Below, piece after piece: positions 719 through 21,129 of a DNA stretch of 39,203 nucleotides (its first letter is position 1; every line of letters starts with the position of its first letter). The notes beneath the pieces are model-generated. The model did no database searches. It was not told the origin of the DNA and saw only the letters and a list, made by a program, of their open reading frames with translations. The stretch spans positions 1 through 39,203 of the forward strand of contig WRCA01000007.1 of NCBI GenBank assembly GCA_009784275.1, written 5' to 3'. The position numbers and the translations under genes were made by a program. This DNA comes from Alphaproteobacteria bacterium. Lineage in GTDB: Bacteria > Pseudomonadota > Alphaproteobacteria > Rs-D84.

Positions 719-730
719 TATTTCCCATCA

Positions 731-755
731 ATCCCGCCGAGAGCGGGAATTTTTA
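731..755 (+). terminator. Rho-independent terminator
   Basis: TCCCGC (732-737) pairs with GCGGGA (743-748), followed by ATTTTTAT. It ends the gene at 320-718. Confidence 0.85.
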
Positions 756-1421: not shown

Positions 1422-1613
1422 AAGTAAATACTCCCCATAAGCGTAAATTTTATTATACTTTAAAACAAACAACAAACAGACTAGTTAATAATTCTTTTTT
1501 TATATTATTATGTAAATTACGGTTTCAGACAGTAAGAAACAATTCGTAAATGAAAAATAAATCACTCCATAAAAATAGACAGCTTCCTATGCAGTGCTTA
1601 AATTTGTCCATGC

Positions 1614-1641
1614 TTGACAAATTATTGCAGTGTGTTATAGT
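1614..1641 (+). promoter_or_regulatory. Sigma-70-type promoter
   Basis: TTGACA at 1614-1619, a 16-nt spacer and TATAGT at 1636-1641. It drives the gene at 1669. The rest of the 1422-1613 spacer shows nothing I can name. Confidence 0.75.
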
Positions 1642-1668
1642 TCGTTTCGAATAACAAAGGTATCAAAA

Positions 1669-2280: not shown

Positions 2281-2289
2281 GGAACAGTA

Positions 2290-2625
2290 ATGAACAAGCG
2301 TTATTTAGCCCGTATAAGAATATTAAGCCTGGGAATTATCGCATTCCTGATGCTTTCATGTAAAAAAAGCGCGGAATCTTTGGATAAAAAAATAGCCGCA
2401 ATGGAAGCGGATTCTATAATACGGGAAAAAATCTTTATTGATTTATGGGAAAAAGCAAGCATTTGCCTTGATGAAAAAGATTCACGAAAATGTTGTAACA
2501 GCAAACCGGGCCGGCCACATAAATGTGCAGTAGATGTTTATACGCAAGCCATAGGAAATGCGGAACAAGCGAAGGATTTGAAAAAACTTCGGGAAAAACG
2601 AGCACGTATTGTGAAAGAAAAATAA
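2290..2625 (+). CDS. Small lipoprotein, unknown function
   Basis: The 111-residue predicted lipoprotein has a basic start (MNKRYLARIR), a hydrophobic stretch and the lipobox LMLSC, giving an acylated Cys near residue 24. The rest is Lys/Glu-rich and helical, with a small Cys cluster (SICLDEKDSRKCCNS and a later HKCAVD). The second half (CAVDVYTQAIGNAEQAKDLKKL) could be a single TPR-like helix pair, but that is weak. The AGGG eight to eleven bases before ATG 2290 can serve as ribosome binding site. It follows the gene at 1669 by nine bases and ends at a strong terminator, so the two form a small operon. Family not recognised. Confidence 0.75.
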   Translation: MNKRYLARIRILSLGIIAFLMLSCKKSAESLDKKIAAMEADSIIREKIFIDLWEKASICLDEKDSRKCCNSKPGRPHKCAVDVYTQAIGNAEQAKDLKKLREKRARIVKEK

Positions 2626-2636
2626 AAGAATTTTTT

Positions 2637-2660
2637 ATCTCGCGGGGGCGAGATTTTTTA
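2637..2660 (+). terminator. Rho-independent terminator
   Basis: ATCTCGC (2637-2643) pairs with GCGAGAT (2648-2654), followed by TTTTTA. It closes the 1669-2625 operon. Confidence 0.9.
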
Positions 2661-2681
2661 TTGTTTTCTTCGATAAATTAC

Positions 2682-2709
2682 TTGACAAATTATATTATTT
2701 TGGTATATT
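2682..2709 (+). promoter_or_regulatory. Sigma-70-type promoter
   Basis: TTGACA at 2682-2687, 16-nt spacer, TATATT at 2704-2709. It drives the gene at 2739. Confidence 0.75.
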
Positions 2710-2738
2710 CACGGTCAAATGTGAAAAAAGAGAACAAA

Positions 2739-3197
2739 ATGAATAAAAAACGTGCATTTATGATAGGTCTCTCTATATTTGGGCTGTCTTTGATCGCTAA
2801 TATTGCCAATGCGCAAAAGCCGCATGACTGTAATTGTGGCAATTCAAATCATCCGGGATATCCAAAGAAAAAGTTCACAGGAATTACATATACCATAGCA
2901 GACACTTGTCGTTCGCATCATCCTGATACTTGCGTAACTTGTTTTAAAAGTCCGGCTGGCGCGGTATATTATGCTTTGGCGAGATTCCCGACCATGGCGA
3001 AGAATCCTAAATGGGAAAAAGAAGGATATCCGGAATTGGCATTGCTGATGGCCGCGTATGGTACAGAGGTTATTGCATATGAAGATTCCAATGGACGCTG
3101 GTGGGTTTCCAGAGATGCAACAGATAAAGACCCGAACAATTTCTTGCAAGAAGCTATAAAAGCGGGCAAGGAAAGAGGAAAACAAAAAGTGCAATAA
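2739..3197 (+). CDS. Secreted protein with N-terminal Cys/His cluster, unknown function
   Basis: The 152-residue product has a clear signal peptide: MNKKRAF, a hydrophobic core, and cleavage after ANA near residue 25. The mature N-terminus is Cys/His-rich (HDCNCGNSNH, then CRSHHPDTCVTCF), which could bind a metal or form disulfides in the periplasm. The remainder is a compact domain (residues about 70-140) with VYYALARFPTMAK and GRWWVSRDA, probably an alpha/beta fold I cannot name. Start ATG 2739 is the only one that gives the signal peptide; the Shine-Dalgarno is weak (AAAAAGAG). Own promoter and terminator, so monocistronic. Confidence 0.75.
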   Translation: MNKKRAFMIGLSIFGLSLIANIANAQKPHDCNCGNSNHPGYPKKKFTGITYTIADTCRSHHPDTCVTCFKSPAGAVYYALARFPTMAKNPKWEKEGYPELALLMAAYGTEVIAYEDSNGRWWVSRDATDKDPNNFLQEAIKAGKERGKQKVQ

Positions 3198-3223
3198 ATC
3201 CCGTATATAACGGGATTTTTTAT
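3197..3223. terminator. Terminator between convergent genes
   Basis: AATCCCGT (3197-3204) pairs with ACGGGATT (3210-3217), with T-run TTTTTATT on the plus strand. It serves the gene at 2739 and probably also the leftward glycosyltransferase whose stop codon lies at 3220-3222. Confidence 0.85.
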
Positions 3224-4257
3224 TGATAAGGCTTTTGATTATTGTGCATATATTTATTCAAGTTCGCTTGCGCCATTTGATACAATCCTGCCCAATCATT
3301 AAAATTACGATGGATTTTTGGCGACAAGACATGATTTGAAAAATCCTGCGGATAAATATCGTAATCTTGCAGCGAAAGTTTTTCACGAAGTTCATAATCC
3401 TGGGAAAATTGTTTTATAACATCCATATTGTGCTGGATAACTCTATCCAAAATGAAATACGCAGTTTCGCGGATATTGGCAAAATCTTTCTTTCGCAGTT
3501 GGATTATGGCCAATATAGCCGCCAACAAGGACCAAAATTTTTGTCTTGATTTTGCCCGCAATTCAAAGCTTAAGCTGTGTTCTTGGGAATCATTCAATTT
3601 ATTGTATATGTAAAATGAATTTTCTGAATATCGTATATTTTTCGTAAAATATCCGCAAAGGCTGCCGAACAACATGTCTTCGATTGGCTCTGTTCCGGGC
3701 ATGAATTTAAGGTTATGTCCGGTTAAAAAATCTTTTTTGAACAGAAACCCATTGATGTATTTATGTTCATACATATATGCGATGCATTGATCGGCCTTAT
3801 AGTTATCCGTAATCTGCCAGTATTTTTTCTGTGCGACTTCTTCGTCTTTTACAAGTATCCTGGAACAGGCGATAATATCGGGCGAATGTGACATATGGTT
3901 ATCCAGCATTTCTGAAAAATGAAGATGTTCTAGTTTGCCGATTTCTTCAATTTCTTGGTTTGCCCCCAGCATGTCATCATGGTCCAAAAAGCAAATATAT
4001 TTACCCTGCGCCAGGGAAATTCCTGTATTTCGGGCCGCAGCGGTGCCCTTATTCGTATTATGGCGATGTACCCTAATTTGATTGGAAGAATTCCCCAGGT
4101 ATTGCAAGAAATCTTCTGCTCCATAACTGTTCGATGCATCGTCTATAAGCAATAACTCCGGCTTTCCCGGTTGGGCAAGCACGGAATCCACGGCCGCCAT
4201 CAGACGAAGCGGATCAGAGTTAAAACACGGAATAATTACAGAAATGCTGGTTGACAT
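3220..4257 (-). CDS. Family 2 glycosyltransferase
   Basis: Cytoplasmic GT-A fold enzyme of 345 residues that would transfer a sugar from a nucleotide-sugar to a glycan acceptor, most likely for a surface polysaccharide. The N-terminal half is diagnostic: ISVIIPCFNSD (about residues 5-15), LLLIDDASN, the GTAAARNTGI stretch, and the nucleotide/metal motif FLDHDD near residue 95. The C-terminal half is variable and may set acceptor specificity. There is no transmembrane helix. Donor and acceptor cannot be read from the sequence. It stands alone with no other polysaccharide genes nearby. A promoter overlaps the start region, leaving only a few bases of leader, and there is no Shine-Dalgarno, so translation may be nearly leaderless. 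Confidence 0.9.
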   Translation of the reverse strand: MSTSISVIIPCFNSDPLRLMAAVDSVLAQPGKPELLLIDDASNSYGAEDFLQYLGNSSNQIRVHRHNTNKGTAAARNTGISLAQGKYICFLDHDDMLGANQEIEEIGKLEHLHFSEMLDNHMSHSPDIIACSRILVKDEEVAQKKYWQITDNYKADQCIAYMYEHKYINGFLFKKDFLTGHNLKFMPGTEPIEDMLFGSLCGYFTKNIRYSENSFYIYNKLNDSQEHSLSFELRAKSRQKFWSLLAAILAIIQLRKKDFANIRETAYFILDRVIQHNMDVIKQFSQDYELREKLSLQDYDIYPQDFSNHVLSPKIHRNFNDWAGLYQMAQANLNKYMHNNQKPYQ

Positions 4258-4267
4258 ATCATATGAA

Positions 4268-4295
4268 ACTATAAAACAATAAATTCATTTGTCAA
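4268..4295 (-). promoter_or_regulatory. Promoter of the glycosyltransferase gene
   Basis: On the minus strand: TTGACA (4295-4290), 16-nt spacer, TATAGT (4273-4268). The start codon is only ten bases past the -10 box, which implies a very short leader. Confidence 0.7.
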
Positions 4296-4325
4296 TATAT
4301 TTTCGCTAAATTTAAGTGGTTGGGC

Positions 4326-4353
4326 TTGCTTTTGAGGATTTTTCCTTTATTAT
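4326..4353 (+). promoter_or_regulatory. Possible promoter of the gene at 4406
   Basis: TTGCTT at 4326-4331, a 16-nt spacer and TATTAT at 4348-4353. The match is weaker than the neighbouring promoters but keeps the 16-nt spacing. Confidence 0.45.
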
Positions 4354-4405
4354 TCATTTCGTCAAGTTTAAAGAGGGGGCAAAGAGGCGATACAAGGAAT
4401 ATCGC

Positions 4406-5407
4406 ATGGCCATGGTAAGTCCGCAAAACTTTGTGGGGATTTTTGTAAATCATTACCGAAGATTGGGCGATACGAAAAGTAAGCTCCCGTTTGTAGAGCC
4501 TGTATTTTGCTTTGAATTCAAAGAAGCCTTTATGTACGGCCCCTACATTACCGGCAACAACGATCAACGGGAACATTGGAATTTTATGGCGTATGGTGTT
4601 CAAAGGAAAATAAACGGTAAGCATTTTCGTCTTTGTACCCCTAGAGTAGTGAAAGATTTTAAACATCTTCTGGTTGTAGATAATGAAAATATTCAAACTA
4701 AAAGAATAGAATTCGGACCCGGCTTTCTTTACAGCTGTGTGCAAGACCGGTTCATAGCAGATGGTGAATATAATTTGGTGCCATGTCCGGTAAGAATAGA
4801 ACTGGGGACAAAAGAAGATAAAAAAATATTTTTCCACAGAAAAGGAACATTCGCCTGGATGAAGTGGGAAAAGTATCTGGCGTTTGACCAAAAGGCTTAT
4901 GCGCTTTTCGAAGAAAGAGAAATTCGTATGGCAAAAACAAGGAAGGATTGCCGTTCGGGAATCGAAGACCTGTCAGAAGATGAACCTTTCTTTGAAGGTC
5001 AAAAATCTATGATTGCAAGATATAAAGCTGATGCGCTCGCTTCGGCACATTGGGATTATTTTGCAGGAATGGAAAATCTTATAACAAATATGCTGGGGAT
5101 AGATACACTGCGTGTATGCGGAGAGCCATGTCCAGGAATATATAACTGCCGGTATATACCTGCATTAATGGGTTATGTAGATACTTCAGGTTTGGGTAAG
5201 GAAACTTGTCCCGTTAAACATTACGCATATATGAAGACTGAAGATATCGAAGAGCTGGCCGGATGCACCGTTTGTAATTTTAGAGATTCCAAAGATATAG
5301 ATGGATGCATGGGTTGTAAAAAATATAATAATCTTTTGACAGCACGTGAAATCGCAAACAAAATTATTACCGATGCGCAAAATAAAAGACAAGGCGTAGG
5401 TAATTAG
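4406..5407 (+). CDS. Cys-rich domain protein, member 2 of the local family, with long N-terminal extension
   Basis: Predicted cytoplasmic protein of about 333 residues. I prefer ATG 4406 because AAGGA lies seven bases upstream; an in-frame GTG at 4316 has no ribosome binding site. Residues 1 to about 220 form a domain I do not recognise, rich in aromatic and charged residues. The last 100 residues carry the same Cys framework as the proteins at 1669 and 5440: VCGEPC, YNC, TCPVKH, CTVC and CMGC, then a helix ending AREIANKIITDA. The matching C-terminal helix in the 5440 protein (MQNIAKRIISDV) makes the homology convincing. The 5440 gene follows after 32 bases, so the two are likely co-transcribed. 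Function unknown. Confidence 0.7.
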   Translation: MAMVSPQNFVGIFVNHYRRLGDTKSKLPFVEPVFCFEFKEAFMYGPYITGNNDQREHWNFMAYGVQRKINGKHFRLCTPRVVKDFKHLLVVDNENIQTKRIEFGPGFLYSCVQDRFIADGEYNLVPCPVRIELGTKEDKKIFFHRKGTFAWMKWEKYLAFDQKAYALFEEREIRMAKTRKDCRSGIEDLSEDEPFFEGQKSMIARYKADALASAHWDYFAGMENLITNMLGIDTLRVCGEPCPGIYNCRYIPALMGYVDTSGLGKETCPVKHYAYMKTEDIEELAGCTVCNFRDSKDIDGCMGCKKYNNLLTAREIANKIITDAQNKRQGVGN

Positions 5408-5439
5408 ATTTTATGCCAAAAACTGAAAGGAGATTTCAG

Positions 5440-5730
5440 ATGATGGAAACACTGACCAGGACTGATTTGTGCAAGAATAGGCCTTGTGCCCAGGGTTTGG
5501 GAAAATGCCCATATTTTTCAAGATTCAGCGGGCTGCCAAGTAATTTTATTCCCCAGTGCGAATGCGTTGTTTTGTATTATGCGGATTTGATCATAGAAAA
5601 TAAAGTTGGATGCAGCGATTGTAAAGACCGTGGCAGTTGTGCGAAGAACTGCACATTCTTCAGCAAGTATAGAGCGATGCAGAATATTGCGAAAAGAATT
5701 ATTTCCGATGTAAAAGAAAGTCACTTATAA
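5440..5730 (+). CDS. Small Cys-rich domain protein, member 3 of the local family
   Basis: The 96-residue protein consists almost only of the Cys domain shared with the 1669 and 4406 products: LCKNRPC, GKCPYF, QCEC, CSDC, SCAKNC, then the helix MQNIAKRIISDV. Nine or more cysteines in under 100 residues, with no signal peptide, argue for a cytoplasmic zinc-binding module. Start ATG 5440 was chosen over ATG 5413 because AAAGGAG lies seven bases before it. The 3' end overlaps the convergent M23 peptidase gene by six bases. Function unknown; a regulator or adaptor role is only a guess. Confidence 0.75.
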   Translation: MMETLTRTDLCKNRPCAQGLGKCPYFSRFSGLPSNFIPQCECVVLYYADLIIENKVGCSDCKDRGSCAKNCTFFSKYRAMQNIAKRIISDVKESHL

Positions 5731-6534
5731 AAATTTCTTTGGCGGAACAGGTCTGGATTGGTAAGAAACTTCGTAATGCAAATGTGGACCTGTGGTCGAA
5801 GTCCCCGTGTTTCCTGAATATGCGACTTGACATCCGCTGTCTACAAAATCTCCTTTGTTCACAGTAATTTTGCTTAAATGGCAAAACCTTACGGCAAATT
5901 CTCCACTGCTGATTTTAACCTGGTATCCGCATTTGTCATTCGCATATTTCACAGACTCTACAATACCCGCGATTGGCGAAAATACTGGCGTTCCAACTGG
6001 CGCGGAAAAATCCATTCCGTAATGCATTTCAAGTTCGCCATTGCGAATTCTTTTCCCGAAATCCGAGGTCATTCGCGGATTCCCCCTCAAAGGATTTCCT
6101 TTTGGTGCAATTTGGTCATTTGCAATATTCGGATGATTGGGTTCACAACTTGGAAATAATGGGGCGGTAGTTTCGGATTCTTCCACTTCTATGGCAGTTG
6201 GAACTTTCGGTGCATATCTTCTTGCGACTTCCATCGCGATGGCCAAATCACGTTCTATGAGGTCGATTTCAGTTTCGATACTTATTCCGGAATAAACACA
6301 GTTTCTGATACATTTTCCAGTAGCCAGATCATATGTGGCCTCAAAGGGTTCATATCCTTGCGCAAGGACTTTGTTTCTTTCGACAAAAGAAGTATCCGCG
6401 GCAACAGCCGGGAATTTCTGCGCGGCAAGAATCAGTACGTCATCATTGCTGCCGCCGGCAGACGCGCCTGGAAAATCGGCGGCATAAACACTCGTTATCG
6501 CCATAAAAAAACAAAATACCGCAAATTTTTTCAT
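5725..6534 (-). CDS. Periplasmic M23-family (LytM-type) peptidase
   Basis: Secreted zinc endopeptidase or LytM-like protein of 269 residues, expected to cut or bind peptidoglycan cross-bridges. The signal peptide covers residues 1-19 (cleavage near VYAAD). A unique domain spans residues 20-140, with a disulfide-prone CIRNC. The M23 domain spans about 150-269: metal ligands H171 and D175 (HYGMD), H219 in FCHLS, and H253 in PHLHYEV, so all catalytic positions are present. The fold ends close to the C-terminus, as usual. There is no Shine-Dalgarno. The -10 box TAAAAT ends six bases before the ATG, so the mRNA is probably leaderless. It could be an active hydrolase; degenerate activator homologues lack these residues. 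Confidence 0.92.
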   Translation of the reverse strand: MKKFAVFCFFMAITSVYAADFPGASAGGSNDDVLILAAQKFPAVAADTSFVERNKVLAQGYEPFEATYDLATGKCIRNCVYSGISIETEIDLIERDLAIAMEVARRYAPKVPTAIEVEESETTAPLFPSCEPNHPNIANDQIAPKGNPLRGNPRMTSDFGKRIRNGELEMHYGMDFSAPVGTPVFSPIAGIVESVKYANDKCGYQVKISSGEFAVRFCHLSKITVNKGDFVDSGCQVAYSGNTGTSTTGPHLHYEVSYQSRPVPPKKFL

Positions 6535-6540
6535 CAGTAT

Positions 6541-6569
6541 ATTTTACTATGTTTCGGGCTTTTGTACAA
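6541..6569 (-). promoter_or_regulatory. Promoter of the M23 peptidase, predicting a leaderless mRNA
   Basis: On the minus strand: TTGTAC (6569-6564), 17-nt spacer, TAAAAT (6546-6541). Seven bases past the -10 box is the A of the ATG start at 6534. Confidence 0.65.
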
Positions 6570-6634
6570 GATTGGCTTTGCGAGTATTTTTTCTATCTTT
6601 TTCTCTATTCTTTCTTTCTCTTTTTCTCTTTTTA

Positions 6635-6643
6635 TGCTATAAT
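6635..6643 (+). promoter_or_regulatory. Extended -10 promoter
   Basis: TGC followed by TATAAT (6638-6643) downstream of a C/T-only tract at about 6590-6632. No good -35 box. It precedes the Cys-rich gene at 6671. Confidence 0.6.
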
Positions 6644-6670
6644 TCAAAGAAAGTAGGAAAGGGGTTTTTG

Positions 6671-8884
6671 ATGAAAAGCCGGTTTTTAGTGTATTTTGCA
6701 TTTGTAATTGGGGTAATGTTTGCATTGCCTGTTGCCGCTGATCCGATTGCTGGATATGACCAGACGACGCCTGTATCGTCTGCGACCGCGCAGTCTCCGC
6801 GCAGCACCGCAACCAGCCCGCGTACCGGGCGCGCAACGCCTTCGCCCGCAGCGGCAAAAGCGGGGGCGACCACCACCGCTACATCCCGTGCTGTTGGATC
6901 GCGCAGCACTGCGTCACGTCCAGCTGCAGAAACTTCTCGGAACGTGGCAGCCAGGCCAGCCAATATCGCCAGAACGGCAGATAACAGAGCAGTTCGCGCG
7001 CGTACCGGCGAAACCCCGGCATCCAGCAGAGTGGGTGTTGTAGGGCCCGCAATTCGCGCCAGCACCGGAACTTCGATCAGTTCTTTGGCCAATCGGCTTT
7101 ACACGGGCAGCTATTCGAATATCATAGACCCGACAACTGGATTAATTTCCGCAGATGCGTACAGCAATTGTTTGGAGTCTTACTATGCATGTATGGATGA
7201 AATCTGCACTGCCAGGAATCCTGGACAGCGCCGCTGTGCCTGTGCCGGACGCGTCAAGACTTTCAATAATGTAGAAGGTCAGCTACAGCAAGCAAGGGAA
7301 GATCTGCTGCGTGTATCTGGCGAATTGTCATTGCTGATTGCATCAAAGGGTAAGGAAATTATCTCTGCATTTACATTAACGGATGCGGAAAAAACTTTGA
7401 ACTGCGTGTCTTGGCGCGAAGCGAAAATAAATAAAACCACCGGTCTGTGGTGCTATAACCATATGGTTGCAGGCACAACTACATCAGGTTCTGGTGTTAA
7501 TGCGACCCATACCTGTCCCAGCGGCTATGAACCACAATATTGCAGTGCCGAAGTCAGCGCAGGCGGTTTGGGACTGGGCATGAATTGGGAACAGATTTTA
7601 AATGGTGCTGATTCCGATATTCTGGCGTCATTGAAAACTTATGCCAGCACGATCGATCAGGTCAATGTAATCACGACGAATGATAATGGAAACCTGTTTA
7701 CTTCGTTCATGAACGTCAATGACATTGTAAATCAGCTGGGCGACATAAACATATTCAATACAACCGAAACCTCGGCGGATTTCCTGGCGCGTTTGTGGGG
7801 ATATAACTTGTTCCAATATGCGCATAACAATGTTTGCAACAGAGTTCTGGATTCTTGCTTTAATGGAATTTACGAAGCATGCGGCACTCCGAAAAACGGC
7901 CAGAAGTGCGCCAATGGGCAAGCCCAATGTCCGTTTAATTACAACAGCATAATTTCTGTAAATAACGATGGCAATGATTTGAACTTTGTAAATCCGGGGG
8001 ATACTTACACCAATACTGCATCGGCAACGTGTTATGGATACACAACAACCAGCGGAGATCCATATACTACCTTGCGCCGGCCGGTCGCGGATGCGCGTCG
8101 CAGTGTCGTGCAAAAGTATGCGCTGGATGCGAATGCAGATTGTGACCTGTACGGGGAAGAGCTGAAAAGACAAGCGCAAAATATGGCGTATCAAAAGATA
8201 GCTGCGACTCAATTGCTGCAGAACAAACGTCTTGAATTCAGAATGGAAGAAGACGAGGCATTTGTCCGCGAATCCAATGCGGCCAAGACGAATTTCAGCG
8301 AATGTTTGTCCGAAGTCTTTGAATGCTATCTGACCCAAGAAGTTGCAAATCCGTCTTGGACTACATCGCGCATAAAAACATACTGTGCCCAGATTGCCAG
8401 CATACCGCGCTGTTACACCACGATGATATGCAATCCGCCGAACTCTAACTTGGCCGCGGTCATAGATGTTCCGGATGCGCAGACTTGCACCGACAGTCAA
8501 GACCCGCGCGAAAATAACTGCCGCAATGTTGTGACACTGAATGAAATTCTGAATGGAATGGCAGGAACTGCTTATCCGAATGGCACATCGGCGAAAAACC
8601 GTGAAGCATGTTTACTGTCACAGTTTGTGCAAGACATTCGCGATTGGAAAAGATGGACCGACAACTGTCCATTACCAACAACCGCAGGCGGAATGGGCGG
8701 ATTCCACCCGACCGCGACGGGATGTAGATGTCCGAACAGCAACGAGAATTGGGACGGCACTACCTGTTGCCCATCAGGAACGAGCGTATCTGGAATAGGC
8801 GGCAATCACCCGACCGCGACAGGTTGTAAATGTTTCAATAATAATACAAGCTGGAACGGCAGTATGTGCGTTGCGAATCCTTAA
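6671..8884 (+). CDS. Large exported Cys-rich protein A (paralogue of the gene at 8975)
   Basis: The 737-residue protein has a signal peptide (MKSRFLVYF to about AAD at residue 24). Start ATG 6671 has AGGAAAGGGG upstream; earlier in-frame starts spoil the signal peptide. Residues 25-155 are low-complexity Ala/Arg/Thr/Ser/Pro and basic. The conserved body begins with a Cys motif (SNCLESYYACMDEIC, then RRCACAGR) and a long helix, continues with a central helical segment (DCDLYGEELKRQAQN), and a second Cys cluster (CLSEVFECY). It ends in two short repeats of the type GGxHPTATGCxC...NWDGTxC. The gene at 8975 shares this order. It is probably a periplasmic or surface protein folded by disulfides. 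Family not recognised; role in an envelope structure is inference. Confidence 0.75.
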   Translation: MKSRFLVYFAFVIGVMFALPVAADPIAGYDQTTPVSSATAQSPRSTATSPRTGRATPSPAAAKAGATTTATSRAVGSRSTASRPAAETSRNVAARPANIARTADNRAVRARTGETPASSRVGVVGPAIRASTGTSISSLANRLYTGSYSNIIDPTTGLISADAYSNCLESYYACMDEICTARNPGQRRCACAGRVKTFNNVEGQLQQAREDLLRVSGELSLLIASKGKEIISAFTLTDAEKTLNCVSWREAKINKTTGLWCYNHMVAGTTTSGSGVNATHTCPSGYEPQYCSAEVSAGGLGLGMNWEQILNGADSDILASLKTYASTIDQVNVITTNDNGNLFTSFMNVNDIVNQLGDINIFNTTETSADFLARLWGYNLFQYAHNNVCNRVLDSCFNGIYEACGTPKNGQKCANGQAQCPFNYNSIISVNNDGNDLNFVNPGDTYTNTASATCYGYTTTSGDPYTTLRRPVADARRSVVQKYALDANADCDLYGEELKRQAQNMAYQKIAATQLLQNKRLEFRMEEDEAFVRESNAAKTNFSECLSEVFECYLTQEVANPSWTTSRIKTYCAQIASIPRCYTTMICNPPNSNLAAVIDVPDAQTCTDSQDPRENNCRNVVTLNEILNGMAGTAYPNGTSAKNREACLLSQFVQDIRDWKRWTDNCPLPTTAGGMGGFHPTATGCRCPNSNENWDGTTCCPSGTSVSGIGGNHPTATGCKCFNNNTSWNGSMCVANP

Positions 8885-8891
8885 AAAATTT

Positions 8892-8917
8892 GGGGTGCCG
8901 ATTGGCACCTCAAGTTT
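8892..8917 (+). terminator. Rho-independent terminator (weak T-run)
   Basis: GGGGTGCC (8892-8899) pairs with GGCACCTC (8904-8911) around GATT, followed by AAGTTTTAT. Lies seven bases after the 6671 gene. Confidence 0.65.
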
Positions 8918-8957
8918 TATCTATTTCTACTAATCGCTTTTTCCGTATAGCTTTTTA

Positions 8958-8966
8958 TGGTATAAT
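8958..8966 (+). promoter_or_regulatory. Extended -10 promoter, predicting a leaderless mRNA
   Basis: TGG then TATAAT (8961-8966). The ATG of the next gene starts nine bases after the box, so the 5' leader would be zero to three bases, consistent with the absence of a Shine-Dalgarno. Confidence 0.65.
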
Positions 8967-8974
8967 TTATAAGT

Positions 8975-11575
8975 ATGAAATTCCGTTTTCTGCCTTTTGC
9001 CTTTTGCCTTTTGCCTTTCGGGGCGTTGGCTGCCGACGTCGCTCCGTCGCGTGCTATTCCTGGAAAACAAACCGCGGTTGAACAACCCGCAAGAACAGAA
9101 ACAGAAACTTTAAATGTCGTAGAGTCACGAACTACAGAATTGCCCGCAGCCCCCGTTTCTCAAGCATCAGCGCGCACAGCGACGGTTTCGCGCACAGCGG
9201 CGACCGCAACTGGCCGTGGGGAATCCATTACCGATGTCAGCCGCCAGGTCGGAAGATCCGCGCGCACAGAAGCGGCCAGCCTTAATGCAACCGCACCAAT
9301 TCGTCGCGCTGGATTAACTTTGCGTCCGACAACGGCGGAAGTCGGCGGTCGCGCTGTTATCCGTGGCACTGGGGTTCAGACAGGCTCTAATATCGGCGCC
9401 GAAAATCGTAAACTGACGGTGCGTGCGGCGACAGTCGGGCCGGAAGAAGTTAGCATCGAAGAAGCATCCCTTGCGACCGAAGCATGTCTTGCGCAATATA
9501 TGGATTGCATGGATCAGTTTTGTTCGGTTATCGATGCCAATCAAAAAAGATGTTCATGCAGCAGTCGCTTGCAGTCTTATTCGCGCATAGAAAATGCGGT
9601 AAAGGAAGCGAATAGTCAGCTGAACGATGTCGCGCAGCGTATACGCTATGTAGGCCTTACCGCACAAGAAATACGCAGTATTATGCAAGCGACCGAAGCA
9701 GAATTGGCATTGCAGAGCACCAAGGACACCACCCAATCCCGTAAAATGTTGGATCAGATTGAAAAATTAATTCGTCAGCCGGAAAATTTTGTAGCGGAAA
9801 ATAACAGCTTTGGTTTGGATCTAGATATAAACTTTGATTCTATGGGCGGCGATATTATGGAATTATTTAATCTGGAAGGAAATTCCGGATCGTTTTCTAA
9901 TTTACGCGGGACCGAGCTTTATAATGCCGCGAAAAAGCGTTGTCAGAATGTTTTGAACAGTTGCAAGACCAGGGGCGCAAATGTTTCCCAGGTAACAGGT
10001 CGCTATGATATGGAAATTGACAAGGATTGCATCGCGTATGAAAAAGGTCTGGAGAAAATGAACCAGACGCTGAAATCGAATGTGCGCTCTGCGACCCAGA
10101 TGTTGCAAAAAGCACGTTTGGCGGTTCTGCAAGATCATAATACTTATGATGCCAAAGGCTGCGTAGGTGCACTGGAACAGTGCATGCATGATGATATGGT
10201 ATGCGGCAGCGATTATGCAAAATGTTTGGATCCGACGAAGCGCTTTATAGACGAAAATGGTCAGGTTATCTTGGGGCAGAATGTTTCTTCGATAAGAAAG
10301 ATGATGAACAACTTTGACAACTCGAAGATAGATACAGGCTTTATCACCAGTGCATGGGGAATGACCGGATATATGAATTGTGATGTGCCGGGACAAAACG
10401 ACGATGGTAAATGCATTGTGAAATACTTGCTGTCGAAAATCGGAATGGGTGATGTGAATTCCGGATTATGCAGACCTGTGTTGGACAAGTGCCGCAGCTA
10501 TACCTATGACGCGCGCGGAAAGTATGATAATAAAAACAGTATTGTAGTGGGCTATATCCAACGTGCGATGACCAATATACGCGCGGCGCAGGAACAGATA
10601 ATTTCTGACTTTGCATCCAGCTGTATGGCAGATATTGCAGTATGCTATTCAAAACAAATTACGCAGATAAACGCTTGGTCGACCAATGCGAATATCCAGA
10701 ACGTTTATGCAGTGTTAAAAGGCGCGTGCCGGAATGTTGCGTTAACATGCAGCTATGCAGTGTTTGCCGCGGATGATTCTATGGCGGGTTGCCCGACAGC
10801 GCCGCTTACTAATCCCCCCTATAGTGCTGCCGATGTCATTGCAACCGTGACGGATGCCCAGCGTCAAAATATCTGCATAGAAAATATTTCGGATATCTTC
10901 TACCAGTCTATGTTGTGTCCGGATAATTCATTCTGGGTACAGCCACAACTGGGCACGAAAATGGGTTCTACGTGGCCGGTTACAGAAACATGCTCTATTG
11001 GCCCCAATACTGGCGACACTTGCTTTACCCCCAATGGTGGCAAATGCACTAATGGCGGTGGTGGTGCTTGCACTGCCAGCAATGGCAACTGCAGCATCAG
11101 TGGCACCACTTGTACTTATACTGGCGTTGTGGGTGTATTTGTGAATGAAAGATGCGTATGTCAAGCGGGATATGGCGTTAATATGGGTCGTTGCGATATG
11201 TGTCCAGCTGGGGCAACTTTCCAACCCAGTTGCGGTGCATATAGTATTGATGGCCAGAAATGCATTATGGTCGGTTGCGGATGTCCGGGTGATAAAATTT
11301 ATAACTCCAGCACAGGCTCATGCGCGTGTCGTGGGGGTGCAGGGGCTATACCTAATGGAGACAGCTGCTGTCCTGTTGGCGAAGTGTATATAGACGCTCT
11401 ACCTGGTTGTGGCACATGCGCTGCTGGTGAAATTTATGATTCTGCAACACGTACATGCAATTGTCCAGCAGGGACAAGTGTTGGGGGTGGCGGTAGTCCG
11501 GTTGCCTCTGGTTCGTCCTGTGAATGTCCATTGGCGACTCCGAACTGGAGTGGCACCGCATGTGTCGGACCATAA
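8975..11575 (+). CDS. Large exported Cys-rich protein B (paralogue of the gene at 6671)
   Basis: The 866-residue protein has a signal peptide (MKFRFLPFAFCLLPFGALAAD, cleavage near 20). Residues 21-155 are Ala/Thr/Arg-rich low complexity, as in protein A. The body starts with EACLAQYMDCMDQFC and KRCSCSSR, aligning with the A motif. A central region has DCIAYEKGLEKMNQ, CVGALEQCMHDDMVCG and CMADIAVCY. The last 200 residues are a chain of Cys-rich modules (CPAGATF, CGCPG, CACRGG, CPAGEIY-like) ending in a module shared with A (CECPLATPNWSGTAC). Together A and B look like tandem duplicates that diverged. Probably exported and disulfide-bonded; EGF-like or TIL-like tail modules are a loose resemblance only. 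Function unknown. Confidence 0.75.
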   Translation: MKFRFLPFAFCLLPFGALAADVAPSRAIPGKQTAVEQPARTETETLNVVESRTTELPAAPVSQASARTATVSRTAATATGRGESITDVSRQVGRSARTEAASLNATAPIRRAGLTLRPTTAEVGGRAVIRGTGVQTGSNIGAENRKLTVRAATVGPEEVSIEEASLATEACLAQYMDCMDQFCSVIDANQKRCSCSSRLQSYSRIENAVKEANSQLNDVAQRIRYVGLTAQEIRSIMQATEAELALQSTKDTTQSRKMLDQIEKLIRQPENFVAENNSFGLDLDINFDSMGGDIMELFNLEGNSGSFSNLRGTELYNAAKKRCQNVLNSCKTRGANVSQVTGRYDMEIDKDCIAYEKGLEKMNQTLKSNVRSATQMLQKARLAVLQDHNTYDAKGCVGALEQCMHDDMVCGSDYAKCLDPTKRFIDENGQVILGQNVSSIRKMMNNFDNSKIDTGFITSAWGMTGYMNCDVPGQNDDGKCIVKYLLSKIGMGDVNSGLCRPVLDKCRSYTYDARGKYDNKNSIVVGYIQRAMTNIRAAQEQIISDFASSCMADIAVCYSKQITQINAWSTNANIQNVYAVLKGACRNVALTCSYAVFAADDSMAGCPTAPLTNPPYSAADVIATVTDAQRQNICIENISDIFYQSMLCPDNSFWVQPQLGTKMGSTWPVTETCSIGPNTGDTCFTPNGGKCTNGGGGACTASNGNCSISGTTCTYTGVVGVFVNERCVCQAGYGVNMGRCDMCPAGATFQPSCGAYSIDGQKCIMVGCGCPGDKIYNSSTGSCACRGGAGAIPNGDSCCPVGEVYIDALPGCGTCAAGEIYDSATRTCNCPAGTSVGGGGSPVASGSSCECPLATPNWSGTACVGP

Positions 11576-11594
11576 TTCTGGGCAAACATATTTC

Positions 11595-11622
11595 TTGAAA
11601 CTATGTTTATTTTTGCTATTCT
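11595..11622 (+). promoter_or_regulatory. dnaX promoter
   Basis: TTGAAA at 11595-11600, 16-nt spacer, TATTCT at 11617-11622. AGGAAG (11631-11636) is the ribosome binding site for ATG 11644. Confidence 0.65.
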
Positions 11623-11643
11623 TTCCGCAAAGGAAGATTTAGC

Positions 11644-13194
11644 ATGGATACTAATTACACCGTTCTCGCACGAAAATACCGCAGCCCAGACTTTTCATGG
11701 CTTATTGGACAAGAAGTTCTGGTTAAAACACTGACCACTGCAATCAATACAGACCGTATTGCTCATGCCTATATTTTTACCGGAATTCGCGGTACCGGAA
11801 AGACCAGCACAGCGCGAATTCTGGCGAAATCTTTGAACTGTTTAAGCGCAGATAAAGCAACTGCAACGCCTTGCGGAACTTGTGAAAATTGCCGCGCAAT
11901 CGCAGCGGGTCAGCATATTGATGTTTTGGAAATAGACGCTGCATCACACACCGGTGTTGATAATATGCGCGATATCTTGGATGCAGCGCAATACCGTCCA
12001 ACGAATGGCAGATTCAGGGTTTATATCATAGACGAAGTTCATATGCTATCCACCAGCGCTTTTAATGCTTTACTGAAAACGCTGGAAGAACCGCCTGCAC
12101 ATGTGATTTTCATTCTGGCGACTACGGAAATTCGTAAAGTCCCGGTTACTATACTTTCAAGATGCCAGCGCTTTGATTTAGTTCGCGTTCCAGTTGAAAC
12201 ACTAAAGAAACATTTTGCTTGGGTTGCGGAGCAAGAAAAAATCGAATTATCAGATGCAGCGAATGAACTGATTGCGCGGGCTGCAGATGGTTCTGTACGC
12301 GATGGATTAAGCCTGTTGGATCAAGCGATTGCGCAGACCGGCGGCAAGGTTGATGAAACTGCGGTCTTGGATATGTTAAAACGCGCGGATCGCGGTGTAG
12401 TAGTGGACTTTATGCAGACTGTGTTGTCTGGCGATGTCGCATCAGCAATTGCAAAAGTTGATCAGCTTTATGCCAACGGCGCTGACCTGGCTATGTTGCT
12501 TAACGATATGATGGAATGGACGCATTGGGCAACACGCATGCATCCAGGATTGCGCGTGGGCGGTACAGATTCCGCGCCTTATACATCAGATCAACGCGAA
12601 CAGATAAAGAAAATTAATGAAACAACAAGCCTGAATACTCTGTCGAGAATATGGCAAGTAATGGTGGCGAGCGTTCCGGAAATGCAAGCAGCAGGAAATC
12701 AAAAACAATGCTTTGATATGCTGGTCGTGCGCCTTATGCGGATTGCAGATATACCCAGCGTGCCAGAGTTAATGAAACAACAGAGCGCAAATAATGAATC
12801 GTCATTACGAGCAGAGCGAAGCAACCCAGCAGCAAGTAATACGAATACAACAAATACATTCAGTTCTCCAACGGATTTGGCTTCTGCGCTTTCCGATGCG
12901 AAAGAATTAATGCTGATGACTCATTGGAGTAACAATATAGAAGTTATTGAATTTTCAGACGGACATATAAAATTTTTTGATCGCAAAGATGATCGCGATT
13001 TTCCAATGAAGTTAAAACAATTCTTGCAAGAAAAAACTGGAAAAATTTGGACGCTTGAAAAAATAGAACAAGCGCAAAAAACCGAAGAATTGCAAACGCC
13101 GGGCGAGATAAAAAAAGCAGAAATAGAAAGCGATCCTGCTGTTGCGAATGCTCTGGATTTATTCGCCGGCGCAGAAGTTGTGGGAGTGAAATGA
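11644..13194 (+). CDS. dnaX: DNA polymerase III subunit gamma/tau (clamp loader ATPase)
   Basis: Cytoplasmic clamp-loader ATPase that opens the beta clamp and loads it at primed DNA. The 516-residue protein has all AAA+ hallmarks: Walker A GIRGTGKT (47-54), the zinc module C66/C77/C80/C83, Walker B IIDEVH (128-133), sensor 1 (ATTE), the SRCQRFD arginine-finger motif and the sensor 2 region (GSVRDGLSLLDQ). Domain III follows to about residue 375. A low-complexity linker then carries a REP-like insertion (residues about 385-397), and the C-terminal 100 residues would be the shortened tau part. The usual ybaB-recR neighbours are absent. Its stop overlaps the start of the next gene (ATGA). A run of seven A at 13110-13116 is a possible slip site. 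Confidence 0.97.
   Translation: MDTNYTVLARKYRSPDFSWLIGQEVLVKTLTTAINTDRIAHAYIFTGIRGTGKTSTARILAKSLNCLSADKATATPCGTCENCRAIAAGQHIDVLEIDAASHTGVDNMRDILDAAQYRPTNGRFRVYIIDEVHMLSTSAFNALLKTLEEPPAHVIFILATTEIRKVPVTILSRCQRFDLVRVPVETLKKHFAWVAEQEKIELSDAANELIARAADGSVRDGLSLLDQAIAQTGGKVDETAVLDMLKRADRGVVVDFMQTVLSGDVASAIAKVDQLYANGADLAMLLNDMMEWTHWATRMHPGLRVGGTDSAPYTSDQREQIKKINETTSLNTLSRIWQVMVASVPEMQAAGNQKQCFDMLVVRLMRIADIPSVPELMKQQSANNESSLRAERSNPAASNTNTTNTFSSPTDLASALSDAKELMLMTHWSNNIEVIEFSDGHIKFFDRKDDRDFPMKLKQFLQEKTGKIWTLEKIEQAQKTEELQTPGEIKKAEIESDPAVANALDLFAGAEVVGVK
12799..12831 (+). repeat. REP-like palindromic repeat inserted in frame in dnaX
   Basis: The stretch beginning CGTCATTACGAGC and continuing AGAGCGAAGCAACCCAG closely resembles the widespread REP-type repeat (CGTCATTGCGAGC...GCGAAGCAATCC). 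It is translated as SSLRAERSNPAA in the DnaX linker, similar in style to rickettsial palindromic elements that sit inside genes. Identification rests on remembered consensus. Confidence 0.7.
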
Positions 13195-13841
13195 AAAATC
13201 CAATTTCACCGTTTAATGATGATATAGAAAAAAATCCCGACAAGGAATATATCGGTGGCCAGTATAGCACTTTTGATATCGAGTTGAGCAGACTGTCGCA
13301 AGATACAAAGGCGAGCAAGACAAAAATATATATAGCCGCCAGAAAAAAAATTTCAAAACAGAAAGCAAAAGAATTCTATGACTATGTTCGCTCGAAATTT
13401 GAAGGTGTGATAAATGGCGATGACGAAATTAATAACAGCTTGCTTAATTTAAAGAAGTTGAAGTTTGCAGAAAAAATTTCTTTGGCGCAGAAAATTATTG
13501 ATACCACAACGGCGATTATAAATGGCGAAAAAGGTGATTTTATTCCAAATATCCCTGTGAAAAAAAATAAAAAAATAGGGCGAATGGCAATTTGCGGTTT
13601 AAAAAATCAATTAGAAATAAATTTGTTTGAAAAAGATTATTCAAATGACATGGATTGGTTGGTGTCCGATTTATTTCATGAATATATACATATCGTTGAT
13701 ATCTATGCACCGCATATTTCTCCGTTGGGTGCGCAAATATCTTGTATATCGCAAAAACATTATTCCAATAAGCCCGGAAAATTACATAATATGAATCCGC
13801 TGGAAATTAATGCGTATGGCGAGTATCATAAATTCAAGTAA
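13191..13841 (+). CDS. HEXXH-motif putative zinc metalloprotease
   Basis: The 216-residue protein has no signal peptide. It holds a zincin-type motif HEYIH at residues 163-167 inside the helix DLFHEYIHIVD, and a downstream NPLEINAY (E205) that fits the third zinc ligand of gluzincin-like enzymes. The N-terminal 120 residues are Lys-rich and helical, with a small domain around KNKKIGRMAICGL. The gene overlaps the dnaX stop by four bases (ATGA), so translation is probably coupled. The pilin-like gene follows after ten bases. The substrate is unknown. It could act on a neighbouring exported protein before export, or be a phage-derived peptidase; both are guesses. Confidence 0.65.
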   Translation: MKNPISPFNDDIEKNPDKEYIGGQYSTFDIELSRLSQDTKASKTKIYIAARKKISKQKAKEFYDYVRSKFEGVINGDDEINNSLLNLKKLKFAEKISLAQKIIDTTTAIINGEKGDFIPNIPVKKNKKIGRMAICGLKNQLEINLFEKDYSNDMDWLVSDLFHEYIHIVDIYAPHISPLGAQISCISQKHYSNKPGKLHNMNPLEINAYGEYHKFK

Positions 13842-13851
13842 AGAGGAAATG

Positions 13852-14319
13852 ATGAGAAAAAAGAACCAAGAATCAGGTCGGTCGTTAATTGAAATGCTGG
13901 GCGTTCTGGCCATCGCGGGTGTTATGACTGCTGGCGCAATAGCAATGTATAATGTAGTGCGAACCCGCCAAATTCGCATGGTTGCAACCGAAGATATGAA
14001 AACAGTTGCTAATAATGCAAAACTGTTGTTTTCTGCGCGCCGCGACTACAGCGGAATTTCGGTTGATTATTTGGTAAAGGCTGGCGCGATGAAGACTGAA
14101 AAAAGTCCGCTGCCGGGCGCGGAATTTTCAGTAATGGCAGAGCCCGGAGTTCGCGAATTTATAATGATGTTCGGCAATTTGGATTTCAGAACTTGCAGCT
14201 GGCTGGCAACGGTAAAGCTTGATTGGGCAGACCGCATAAGTGTGAATGGATATTTCGAATCTGCCGCGACTTACTGCAGAACAGTTGAGAAGAACGAGGT
14301 TTCAATTTGGGTGAAATAA
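13852..14319 (+). CDS. Type IV pilin-like / pseudopilin protein
   Basis: The 155-residue protein starts with a short basic leader and a class III signal: SG|RSLIEMLG, with Glu at mature position 5, then the hydrophobic helix VLAIAGVMTAGAIAMY. This is the prepilin peptidase signature, so the product should be cut after Gly9 and assembled or anchored in the inner membrane. The globular part is short, with a C-terminal disulfide pair (TCSW and TYCRTV). Of two adjacent ATGs I chose 13852 because AGAGGA at 13842-13847 is better spaced from it. No prepilin peptidase, assembly ATPase or secretin is in the window. Downstream the OmpA-like gene overlaps its last 13 bases. Confidence 0.8.
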   Translation: MRKKNQESGRSLIEMLGVLAIAGVMTAGAIAMYNVVRTRQIRMVATEDMKTVANNAKLLFSARRDYSGISVDYLVKAGAMKTEKSPLPGAEFSVMAEPGVREFIMMFGNLDFRTCSWLATVKLDWADRISVNGYFESAATYCRTVEKNEVSIWVK

Positions 14320-14990
14320 AAAAATATTTTTTTGTTTTTTGCCTTTTATTATGCAGCTGCGCTACATATCAAACTCCACCGCGCAGTGAATGGTCGTCGG
14401 TTTTAAAGGGCGCTTCTTTTTCTGAAATGACCGCGGATGCAAAGGTCGCAAAACGCCCGGTGTTCCTGGGGGCAGGGGGAAAATTAATCAGTAATCAGCA
14501 ACTGTCGGTCGGGAATCAGTATGGCGCTGAACCGACGCCAGCCGATATAAATCCCGCGGTATTCAATTACATGGTTGCGCTGGAAAAAGAATTATATGAT
14601 TCCTTACTGAAGCCTGGAATTCAAGTGCAGCGCGTGGGAACGGATGTAGTTTTATTACTGGTGCGGGATGCATTTATGTATATAGATGCGCCGGAAATTT
14701 CTGCGGATGGCGAAGATACTCTGAAAATTATCGCAAAAATTTTGAAGAAATACGATGCGACTTTCATAGAAATTGTCGGTTATACGGATGCGATGCGTGA
14801 TAAGAATGCGGCGCAAGCATTGTCTTTGGACATGGCGCAAAGGATGGCGATATTCTTGGCAAAGCATGATGTTACGCCCGTCAGAATGTTTATATCTGGC
14901 CGCGGCGCTGCGCGTCCGATCGCGGCGCAAGATGACGCGGGGCGTCGTATGAATCGTCGTGTGGAAATAAGACTTTCGCCGGCAAGATAA
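14307..14990 (+). CDS. OmpA-domain lipoprotein (Pal-like)
   Basis: Outer-membrane lipoprotein of 227 residues with an OmpA C-terminal domain. Start is TTG 14307 (GAGG seven bases upstream). The signal KKYFFVFCLLLCSC gives a lipid Cys at residue 18. Residues 19-100 are a linker, and the OmpA-like domain covers about 115-225: VGYTDAMRDKN, SGRGAARPIA and the closing MNRRVEIRL. In the family the domain binds peptidoglycan through an Asp in the TD motif and an Arg in LSxxRA. Here the second reads LSLDMA, so the Arg is replaced by Met and binding may be altered. The gene overlaps the pilin-like gene by 13 bases, suggesting coupled translation. Confidence 0.88.
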   Translation: MGEIKKYFFVFCLLLCSCATYQTPPRSEWSSVLKGASFSEMTADAKVAKRPVFLGAGGKLISNQQLSVGNQYGAEPTPADINPAVFNYMVALEKELYDSLLKPGIQVQRVGTDVVLLLVRDAFMYIDAPEISADGEDTLKIIAKILKKYDATFIEIVGYTDAMRDKNAAQALSLDMAQRMAIFLAKHDVTPVRMFISGRGAARPIAAQDDAGRRMNRRVEIRLSPAR

Positions 14991-15007
14991 ATTTGTAAAA
15001 ATTCCCA

Positions 15008-15035
15008 TTGAAATTCAAAATTAATTGGCTATAAT
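15008..15035 (+). promoter_or_regulatory. Promoter of the Skp-like gene
   Basis: TTGAAA at 15008-15013, 16-nt spacer, TATAAT at 15030-15035. AAGGAAGG before ATG 15067 is the ribosome binding site. Confidence 0.8.
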
Positions 15036-15066
15036 CTTGCCATCCAAACAAAAAAGGAAGGAAATC

Positions 15067-15732
15067 ATGGAAAAAAAGACAACTAAAAAATTAGTACCTG
15101 TGGTCGCGAAAAAATATACCAAGATCGGTATCATCGCTGTTGCAGTTGTGGTCGTTGCCGCTTTGGGCGTGTGGGGTGTCCGTCACTTCTCTGGCCCGAT
15201 GTCGATCGATCGCGCGATCGCAGATGTTTCGACAGAGGCGGTTAGCGGTGCGGATATGCGCATCGCAGTCGTCCGCATGGATGCGATCCAAGAAGGCGCA
15301 AAGGTCTTGACCGATCTGCGTAAACAGCGCGAAGCGATGGAGCTTAAACTTCGTGACGAGCTGACCAAACGCCAGAAAGACCTGGAAAAAGAAAAGGCAG
15401 AGATTGAAAAGTCCCAAGATGTCCTTTCCAGGGATGCGTTGCAAAAACGGGTAATCGAATATCAACAGAAAGTTGCGAAGTTGCAGCAGGATTTGACCAC
15501 CCGTGCCCAAGCGATCGATGTTGCGTTCCAACGGTCTCTGAATAAAATCCAAGCCGAACATCTGGACCCGATTATCGACGCGATAATCGCGAAGAAAAAC
15601 CTGTCGATAGTTATCGATGGACGTTTCGCGCGTATATCCCCGAATTCGATGAAAGGCCTTGATATAACGGATGATATCATTTCATCGCTGGACAAGCGAG
15701 TATCCAGCGCGAAAATGGAAACCCCGAAGTAA
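15067..15732 (+). CDS. OmpH/Skp-family periplasmic chaperone-like protein, membrane-anchored
   Basis: The 221-residue protein has an N-terminal transmembrane segment (about residues 19-38, IGIIAVAVVVVAALGVWGV) after a Lys-rich stretch. The Skp-type core then starts with MRIAVVRMDAI, followed by a long charged coiled coil (about 85-165, rich in Lys, Glu and Gln), and closes with LSIVIDGRFA and DITDDIISSLDKRV. This order matches OmpH/Skp, which holds unfolded outer-membrane proteins in the periplasm. Unlike classical Skp there is a long uncleaved-looking anchor rather than a simple signal peptide, and the gene is not next to bamA or lpxD. It sits among exported protein genes, which suggests a helper role in their passage. 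Confidence 0.85.
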   Translation: MEKKTTKKLVPVVAKKYTKIGIIAVAVVVVAALGVWGVRHFSGPMSIDRAIADVSTEAVSGADMRIAVVRMDAIQEGAKVLTDLRKQREAMELKLRDELTKRQKDLEKEKAEIEKSQDVLSRDALQKRVIEYQQKVAKLQQDLTTRAQAIDVAFQRSLNKIQAEHLDPIIDAIIAKKNLSIVIDGRFARISPNSMKGLDITDDIISSLDKRVSSAKMETPK

Positions 15733-15757
15733 AAAACCCGCGAGAGCGGGTTTTTTT
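15731..15757 (+). terminator. Rho-independent terminator
   Basis: AAAAAACCCGC (15731-15741) pairs with GCGGGTTTTTT (15746-15756) around GAGA. It ends the Skp-like gene. Confidence 0.93.
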
Positions 15758-15767
15758 AAAGAAAGAA

Positions 15768-15938
15768 CTCCCTCCTGCCCCCGTTTTCGGGGGCGGGATA
15801 GTTTTTATTATGAGCGAAGCGAATTATAAAAACTTGGGTGGGGGTGTTTATTTCTCTGAAGCCCCCACCCAAGCTACGCTAAATGACTGCGTCATTAAGC
15901 TTCGCTTTCCCGCCCCCGAAAACGGGGGCAGGAGGGAG
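15768..15938. mobile_element. 171-bp nested palindromic element (MITE-like or paired REP)
   Basis: Perfect 31-bp inverted repeats bound the element (15768-15798 and 15908-15938, outer ends CTCCCTCCTGCCCCCG). Each arm carries its own small palindrome (CCCCCG TTTT CGGGGG). Inside are three more symmetrical pairs: AGCGAAGC/GCTTCGCT (15813 and 15899), CTTGGGTGGGGG/CCCCCACCCAAG (15833 and 15862), and AATGAC/GTCATT (15882 and 15891). No ORF for a transposase and no clear target duplication. It resembles non-autonomous intergenic repeats of REP/MITE type, possibly two copies in head-to-head orientation. It fills most of the 271-base gap before the next gene. Confidence 0.7.
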
Positions 15939-16003
15939 AAAATTTGATGATTTTTCCCTTCCAAAATTTCGGTTTTTATGATAGAATTTCCCAAAGAGAG
16001 AAT

Positions 16004-17947: not shown

Positions 17948-17956
17948 TATAAACAA

Positions 17957-20364: not shown

Positions 20365-20871
20365 TTATTTTTTCTTTCTTTTTGTAAAGACCAGAACACC
20401 CACTGCCGCGACTACCAAGCCCAGCAAGATATACAGCATTGTCGAATTTCCTGTGCTTTTTGGTGCCGGCGCCAATTGTTCATCTGGCAGCTTTGCAGCT
20501 TCTTCTTCAACTACTGCTTCTTCCTGTGTGTCCGCTGCGCCCAATGCCCCGCGATAATCTACCGGTGTTGCTTCGCCGAAACCTTGGAAGCATTTATCGC
20601 CAATCACAACCAATGGAACATATCCGCCTTGAACACCGCAAGCCTTAATAGCATCCATAAACCTTTGTCTGTTGGCGGCCTCGGTCACATTGACTTCTTC
20701 CACTTTCAGATCTGTGTATTCTGCTTCCAAAACTTTATGCACAAAATCAAGCGCATGATGGCAATGCGGGCAAGATGGAGAATAGTAAAGCGTCATAGTA
20801 CGCGCCGCCATTGCATTAGTTGCGAAGAGGGCAATGCCCGCGGATGTTAAAATTATTTTTGAAAATTTCAT
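20365..20871 (-). CDS. Exported, membrane-anchored glutaredoxin/thioredoxin-like protein
   Basis: The 168-residue protein has a signal peptide (MKFSKIILTSAGIALFATNAMAA, about 1-23), then a thioredoxin-fold domain with active site CPHC (C34, C37) in YYSPSCPHCHHAL, a cis-Pro region (GGYVPLVVIG), and a third Cys in DKCFQGFG. Residues 115-135 are an acidic linker, and a C-terminal transmembrane helix (about 142-162, LYILLGLVVAAVGVLVF) ends in basic residues. So a redox domain is tethered on the periplasmic side. CPHC is the DsbA-type dipeptide, which favours disulfide formation. Given the number of Cys-rich exported proteins in this window, they are natural substrates, but that is inference. Ribosome binding site AAGGAAGG; operon with cvpA. 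Confidence 0.85.
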   Translation of the reverse strand: MKFSKIILTSAGIALFATNAMAARTMTLYYSPSCPHCHHALDFVHKVLEAEYTDLKVEEVNVTEAANRQRFMDAIKACGVQGGYVPLVVIGDKCFQGFGEATPVDYRGALGAADTQEEAVVEEEAAKLPDEQLAPAPKSTGNSTMLYILLGLVVAAVGVLVFTKRKKK

Positions 20872-21108: not shown

Positions 21109-21129
21109 GCCGCATTTGCGGCAATTTTT
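21109..21129. terminator. Bidirectional terminator
   Basis: GCCGCA (21109-21114) pairs with TGCGGC (21117-21122). T-runs lie on both sides: ATTTTTA on the plus strand and TTTTTT on the minus strand. It serves the LptM-like gene and the convergent repeat protein. Confidence 0.9.

Follow-up and report, generated by a model that had tools for sequence, protein, structure and literature searches.

Our analyses have identified a hitherto undescribed family of large, cysteine-rich exported proteins with about ten members, two of which (proteins A and B) are encoded side by side in the 39,203-nucleotide stretch of DNA analysed here (the window). From the profile searches reported below, this family appears to be specific for one order of genome-reduced gut Alphaproteobacteria, and its members probably make up a structure of the cell envelope on which these bacteria depend. 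Our proposal as a whole, which we consider about equally prone to prove right or wrong, is that an order-specific and fixed set of about ten ancient paralogues, stapled by disulfides, makes up one envelope or surface structure in which the members have separate jobs. The order concerned, Rs-D84, holds Enterousia, sub-megabase gut Alphaproteobacteria found in termites and livestock (PMC12306168, PMC11257099), and a dependence of Rs-D84 bacteria on partners has been suggested (PMC12306168).

Paralogy of proteins A and B

Protein A, a member of orthologous group A of the exported Cys-rich family, is encoded at positions 6671..8884 (+) of the window by an open reading frame that starts with ATG (737 aa, 32 Cys); the open frame extends upstream of the ATG at 6671 to a TTG at 6572. 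Protein B (8975..11575, +; 866 aa, 49 Cys, of which 48 follow the signal peptide) is the member of orthologous group B. Both genes are intact and lie on the same strand, separated by 90 bp. The description of A and B as tandem paralogues in the initial annotation of this DNA is confirmed as a whole, both reading frames being in place and adjoining, although proteins of 737–866 aa are not "giant" and the pair, while adjacent, accounts for only two of the ten paralogues that the genome encodes.

In a BLASTP comparison A and B share 22% identity across 667 aa (E=7e-14), with a separate match between their tails (E=1e-6), and their core regions still align when low complexity is masked (E=2e-9). 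The masked core match, together with the match to A of a profile made from paralogues, excludes an origin of the similarity in low complexity alone, so that the claim of paralogy holds and A and B can be regarded, as judged from their sequences, as true paralogues.

Domain organization

The general plan of the family members consists of a Sec signal peptide, a linker that is usually rich in Arg, Ala, Ser and Thr, a core and a tail. The signature C-x3-[YF]-x2-C-M-[DN]-x2-C ... RCxC is followed by the conserved core, and profile A1 is matched by both B and A, the latter not being a row of the profile. In protein A, a predicted Sec signal peptide (6671..6739, +; residues 1–23, with a putative cleavage site at ALPVAA/DP in the pattern read from the translation) precedes a basic linker of low complexity, delimited by composition (6740..7150, +), which is weakly conserved across orthologues and whose basic stretch, counted from the upstream TTG frame, contains 16 R with a net charge of about +15. 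The core domain (7160..8311, +) is recovered by hmmsearch with a profile of 8 paralogues as three homologous segments with two insertions between them. It includes the first Cys motif CLESYYACMDEIC...RCAC (7169..7243, +; residues 167–191), all five Cys of which are retained in 21/21 orthologues. A variable Cys-rich tail with NWxGTxC-type modules, viz. NENWDGTTC and TSWNGSMC, ends the protein (8639..8881, +; residues 657–737).

Protein B has a predicted Sec signal peptide (8975..9031, +; residues 1–19, with the cleavage site placed by sequence pattern) and a linker of Arg/Ala/Ser/Thr-rich composition (9032..9469, +), the net charge of its basic stretch being +4. The core domain, with its series of CX6C motifs and its CMDQFC/RCSC motif, is delimited by profile match and invariant Cys (9476..10249, +; residues 168–425) and matches the family profile, of which B itself is one row, at E=5.5e-95. 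A second Cys region (10469..10750, +) contains three CX6C motifs (C499/506, C550/557 and C585/592) that are invariant in 17/17 orthologues, and a variable Cys-rich tail ending in PNWSGTACVGP, with the module PNWSGTAC, closes the protein (11225..11572, +; residues 751–866).

The signal peptide, the basic stretch, the CMDEIC/CMDQFC motif and the RCAC/RCSC motif that A and B were said to share are each present in both. The central helical segment ascribed to them is visible as a sequence pattern only; the structures predicted for A and for B by AlphaFold2 with three orthologues each (pLDDT 36–37) are unreliable models and were not used for a fold search. The wider interpretation first placed on the two proteins is partly supported: their lack of a known family, export and disulfides stand, whereas the tail module as a defining part does not.

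Relatives, distribution and cellular location

Neither A nor B nor the paralogue profiles gave a significant match in Pfam, NCBIfam or the PDB, in keeping with the earlier remark that these proteins matched no family known to the annotator. Profile searches of the PDB with the core, A and B alignments returned chance matches only, Pfam searches over 17 family members gave two isolated matches, each in one member, and the plasmid and phage collections contained no match to the family. The family profile matches 200 of the 201 genomes of the order. In a class-wide sample of 385 genomes it matches only 5, all of them from this same order, about 380 other Alphaproteobacteria being negative. Within the order, matches are fewer and weaker in genomes beyond the window's own taxonomic family.

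By a simple pattern test in four genomes, a signal-peptide pattern was found in 39/39 members and a stretch further along that is hydrophobic enough for a membrane segment in few of the 39; a lipobox-like match was found in 1/39, which is neither A nor B. A search of the family proteins for a lipid anchor, a beta-barrel or a sorting signal found none. A surface or periplasmic location of A and B is plausible.

The paralogue set and its orthologous groups

The genome of the window (0.89 Mb, 96% complete) contains 10 family members, and 10, 10 and 9 were counted in the genomes G010, G011 and G001, respectively; ten is a lower bound, since the counts come from the loci read and drafts may miss genes. 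The ten-member set of the window's genome amounts to ~24 kb, or 2.7% of the genome. A maximum likelihood tree of the core from four genomes of three genera, made by a quick method and in which some of the group nodes are unresolved or have weak support, distinguishes nine groups (A to I) with one member per genome, and two further groups, viz. J, seen in two genomes, and K, a short form.

An orthologue of A is present in 22/24 family genomes, in single copy in each and with 38–61% identity. At most loci B adjoins A or sits within a few kb of it while the outer neighbours differ, and the A-B linkage is kept in most genera examined, including the named metagenome-assembled genomes Alphaproteobacteria bacterium Lab288P3bin109 (termite gut) and Rickettsiales bacterium Gx485_bin105. 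One genus has a row of four family members, K, A, B and one more, and H and I form another tandem that is likewise conserved.

Secretion machinery and neighbouring genes

Among the alternatives to our proposal, the one that survives best, though we regard it as unlikely, links the family proteins, as cargo or accessory components, to a type IVb-pilus-like or type IV secretion machine whose secretin would give them passage across the outer membrane. A secretin gene is present in single copy in 24/24 genomes of the order; in the window's genome a TcpQ-like gene stands beside it (locus L147, G000:C2, 12380-14792) and a pilin-like gene is found on the same contig (L148, 8770-9264). Pilin-like genes also adjoin A in loci of two genera, and the window itself encodes a VirB9/CagX-like protein with a SPOR domain (37135-38670, +; Pfam CagX E=3.7e-20, NCBIfam VirB9 below its cut-off). 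Secretin systems, as in type II secretion, can pass folded, disulfide-bonded proteins, and the order may possess machines of this kind, as its gene content suggests. However, the family genes lie outside the secretin neighbourhood, no member being present in the secretin loci of the three genomes read, pilin-like genes adjoin A in no more than two genera, and the remaining paralogues are located elsewhere. Pfam gave no match to a subunit of a type IVb pilus or of type IV secretion for A, B or the 17 members searched.

Several further observations concern these and other neighbouring genes. The TcpQ-like, secretin and pilin-like genes together represent a type IVb-pilus-like system; one study (PMC12306168) speaks of type IV pili in another lineage only. 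The VirB9/CagX-like gene, by which a reduced genome encodes a component of type IV secretion, is situated near genes for a ribosomal protein and NusG. Exported Cys-containing proteins without a Pfam or NCBIfam family are encoded at 16001-17947 (+) and 17957-18700 (+) of the window, adjoining OmpA- and OmpH-like genes. Exported proteins with repeated tail-fibre-like segments and few or no Cys are encoded at 21128-22492 (-) of the window and, several in a row, at 14644-18639 of locus L012. The latter locus also encodes, near family member D, an exported protein of 1013 aa with 76 Cys that lies outside the family (11155-14196). In locus L009 a collagen-like repeat protein (391-3486) precedes an autotransporter-like protein whose last residue is Phe (3464-7156), just upstream of family member F.

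Variable tails

The tails of the A orthologues range from 5 to 126 aa and have dissimilar sequences, and those of the B orthologues likewise vary in length and sequence. The NWxGTxC tail, which the initial annotation counted among the shared parts, does occur in both A and B; it was rejected as a family feature, as it is absent from most orthologues, and is best described as a variable end module. The A and B tails of the window align above shuffled controls (95 vs a maximum of 71); we do not claim that A and B have swapped tails locally in this genome, since the B tail is matched just as well by an A tail from another genus.

Sharply differing orthologue tails, and the match of the window's two tails above the shuffled controls, are what would be seen if turnover had diversified the family into an ordinary repertoire of variable adhesins or surface antigens. 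A repertoire of this kind should show gains and losses, and the one-for-one retention of nine groups across three genera, as read in four genomes, counts against it, as does the conserved Cys frame; we consider this explanation improbable. The combination of a conserved core with free tails suggests, under our proposal of a fixed set, that the tail faces outwards.

Cysteine spacing, parity and disulfides

Cysteines spaced seven residues apart (CX6C) are observed 263 times in the family against 49 expected, a five-fold excess (z=33), whereas spacings of nine are below chance (30 observed vs 45 expected). A hydrophobic residue occupies position +4 in 81% of the CX6C motifs, successive motifs are commonly 35–41 residues apart, and the two Cys of a motif would share one face of a helix. 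Invariant Cys number 19 across the A orthologues and 18 across the B orthologues.

Of 82 family members, 78 have an even number of Cys beyond the signal peptide (p=4e-19 if these are independent), including 22/22 A-type sequences, in which the number ranges from 20 to 34. When kinship is allowed for, the A orthologues show at least 13 changes in Cys count and 0 changes in parity, and the B orthologues 11 changes in count and 1 in parity. In a control of sequences cut at random positions the Cys number is even in 51%, and in cytosol-like proteins from the same loci in 59%, while it is even in 80% (28/35) of the exported proteins outside the family. Since other exported proteins are also mostly even, parity reports on an oxidising compartment and not on a special role of the family, and the compartment of the exported proteins looks oxidising in general. 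Among the A orthologues Cys 446/453 and Cys 639/650 (in numbering that begins at the TTG) are lost together, but such pairs are too few to reveal the disulfide connectivity.

The gain and loss of Cys by pairs makes it most likely that Cys bond with Cys, for the most part inside a single chain, and this pairwise change with its even parity is the strongest new evidence on bonding in the family. The Cys are most likely oxidised and bonded mostly within each chain, as far as sequence comparison can indicate, and the claim that A and B are disulfide-built is strengthened by both the parity and the CX6C excess. The same pairwise gain and loss speaks against a covalently cross-linked coat, in which Cys would bond between molecules to give a rigid net like that of the Chlamydia outer membrane complex: the many Cys, the several co-conserved members per genome and the presence of a DsbA-like gene would all suit such a coat, but even numbers that shift by pairs point to pairing within the chain and no Pfam match to Chlamydia envelope families was obtained, which leaves it with a low probability. 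That the proteins are metal-binding or thiol-buffering and not disulfide-bonded, as their high Cys content might suggest, is very improbable in view of the pairwise Cys changes, the few His and the CX6C spacing in place of CXXC clusters.

Redox partners

A candidate accessory oxidoreductase, an exported CPHC redoxin of 168 aa with a C-terminal membrane anchor, is encoded at 20365..20871 (-), 9 kb from A and B, and matches Glutaredoxin weakly, below the cut-off. The initial annotation had drawn attention to its proximity. In support of a link, it is conserved in 35/40 genomes of the order and lies 1–3 kb from a family member in four of them (G011, G015, G016 and G020, the copy in G016 being without a signal peptide); against it, the redoxin is much farther away in several other genomes and a separate DsbA-like gene exists, so that the connection with the family is no more than suggestive. 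The DsbA-like gene is present in 36/40 genomes, and a family member is found within 12 kb of it in 11/21 genomes, which are not independent; this linkage too is suggestive. Neither DsbB nor VKOR was detected in any of the 40 genomes (G000–G039), control genomes being positive, which counts against our proposal as regards the re-oxidation of DsbA. How an anaerobic gut lineage with neither of the two would form disulfides is a second question raised by these results.

Proposed role of the family

Although most of their metabolism has been lost, these bacteria devote ~2.7% of the genome to ten large proteins without a known family, each of which is kept across the genera read. That a genome short of biosynthesis keeps all ten suggests that each is probably needed, which favours a fixed structure over an interchangeable repertoire. 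In the mechanism that we envisage, each protein would enter the periplasm unfolded through Sec, would be oxidised by a DsbA-like enzyme, possibly with assistance from the CPHC redoxin, and would fold as a rod whose amphipathic helices are stapled by disulfides within the chain. The ten members would then serve a single envelope or surface structure in which each has its own job and none can stand in for another; their fast-changing tails would point outwards, and the most likely purpose would be to hold partner cells or to draw on them.

An envelope or surface assembly for contact with other cells stands at about even odds. The most detailed version, to which we give tentative weight and which we think more doubtful than probable, is a disulfide-stapled helical envelope machine of about ten proteins by which auxotrophic cells hold partners and draw nutrients from them, its disulfides being formed by a pathway without DsbB and VKOR. 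The set represents a candidate contact structure for metabolite uptake and supplies named genes.

Comparison with known systems

A lipobox of the kind found in outer-membrane lipoproteins is absent from A and B, and no Pfam match in A, B or the 17 members searched indicates a C-terminal autotransporter beta-barrel, the tails being short Cys modules. In F-like conjugation, adhesins of the TraN type are large exported Cys-rich proteins linked to a transfer machine; compared by Pfam only, the present family differs in having no TraN match, in lying outside a transfer operon and in numbering ten paralogues. The mitochondrial twin-CX9C (CHCH) proteins, in which Cys pairs at a fixed helical spacing staple helices, offer an analogy in the fixed spacing only, for the family is bacterial, its proteins are large, have CX6C and not CX9C motifs, and lack a Pfam match to this group.

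The Chlamydia outer membrane complex (OmcA, OmcB and Pmps) is a Cys-rich exported envelope set of a reduced genome served by Dsb enzymes (PMC6752827), and our family too is a Cys-rich exported set in a reduced genome. Searches of Pfam gave no indication of homology to OmcA, OmcB or the Pmps, and, while the Chlamydia proteins are cross-linked both within and between molecules, the even Cys numbers of the family point to bonds within the chain.

The Helicobacter proteins HcpA-E and Campylobacter Csep1P are exported helical proteins of host-associated bacteria in which each helix hairpin is held by a disulfide, and H. pylori is without the classical DsbA/DsbB pair (PMC4597128, PMC12904459). The family resembles them in its signal-peptide pattern and its high Cys content, and its bacteria are, like H. 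pylori, short of the classical Dsb pair; helices in the family are a matter of sequence pattern, the predicted models being of too low quality for a verdict on a helical solenoid. No sequence relation to HcpA-E or Csep1P was found, nor a Sel1 Pfam match, as in the Sel1-like proteins of Helicobacter, for A, B or the 17 family members. The hairpin Cys of Csep1P are nine apart, e.g., Cys59/Cys68 (PMC12904459), whereas in the family the enriched Cys spacing is seven (263 vs 49), with the spacing of nine below expectation (30 vs 45), and the family proteins are longer and are distinguished by their linker and tail.
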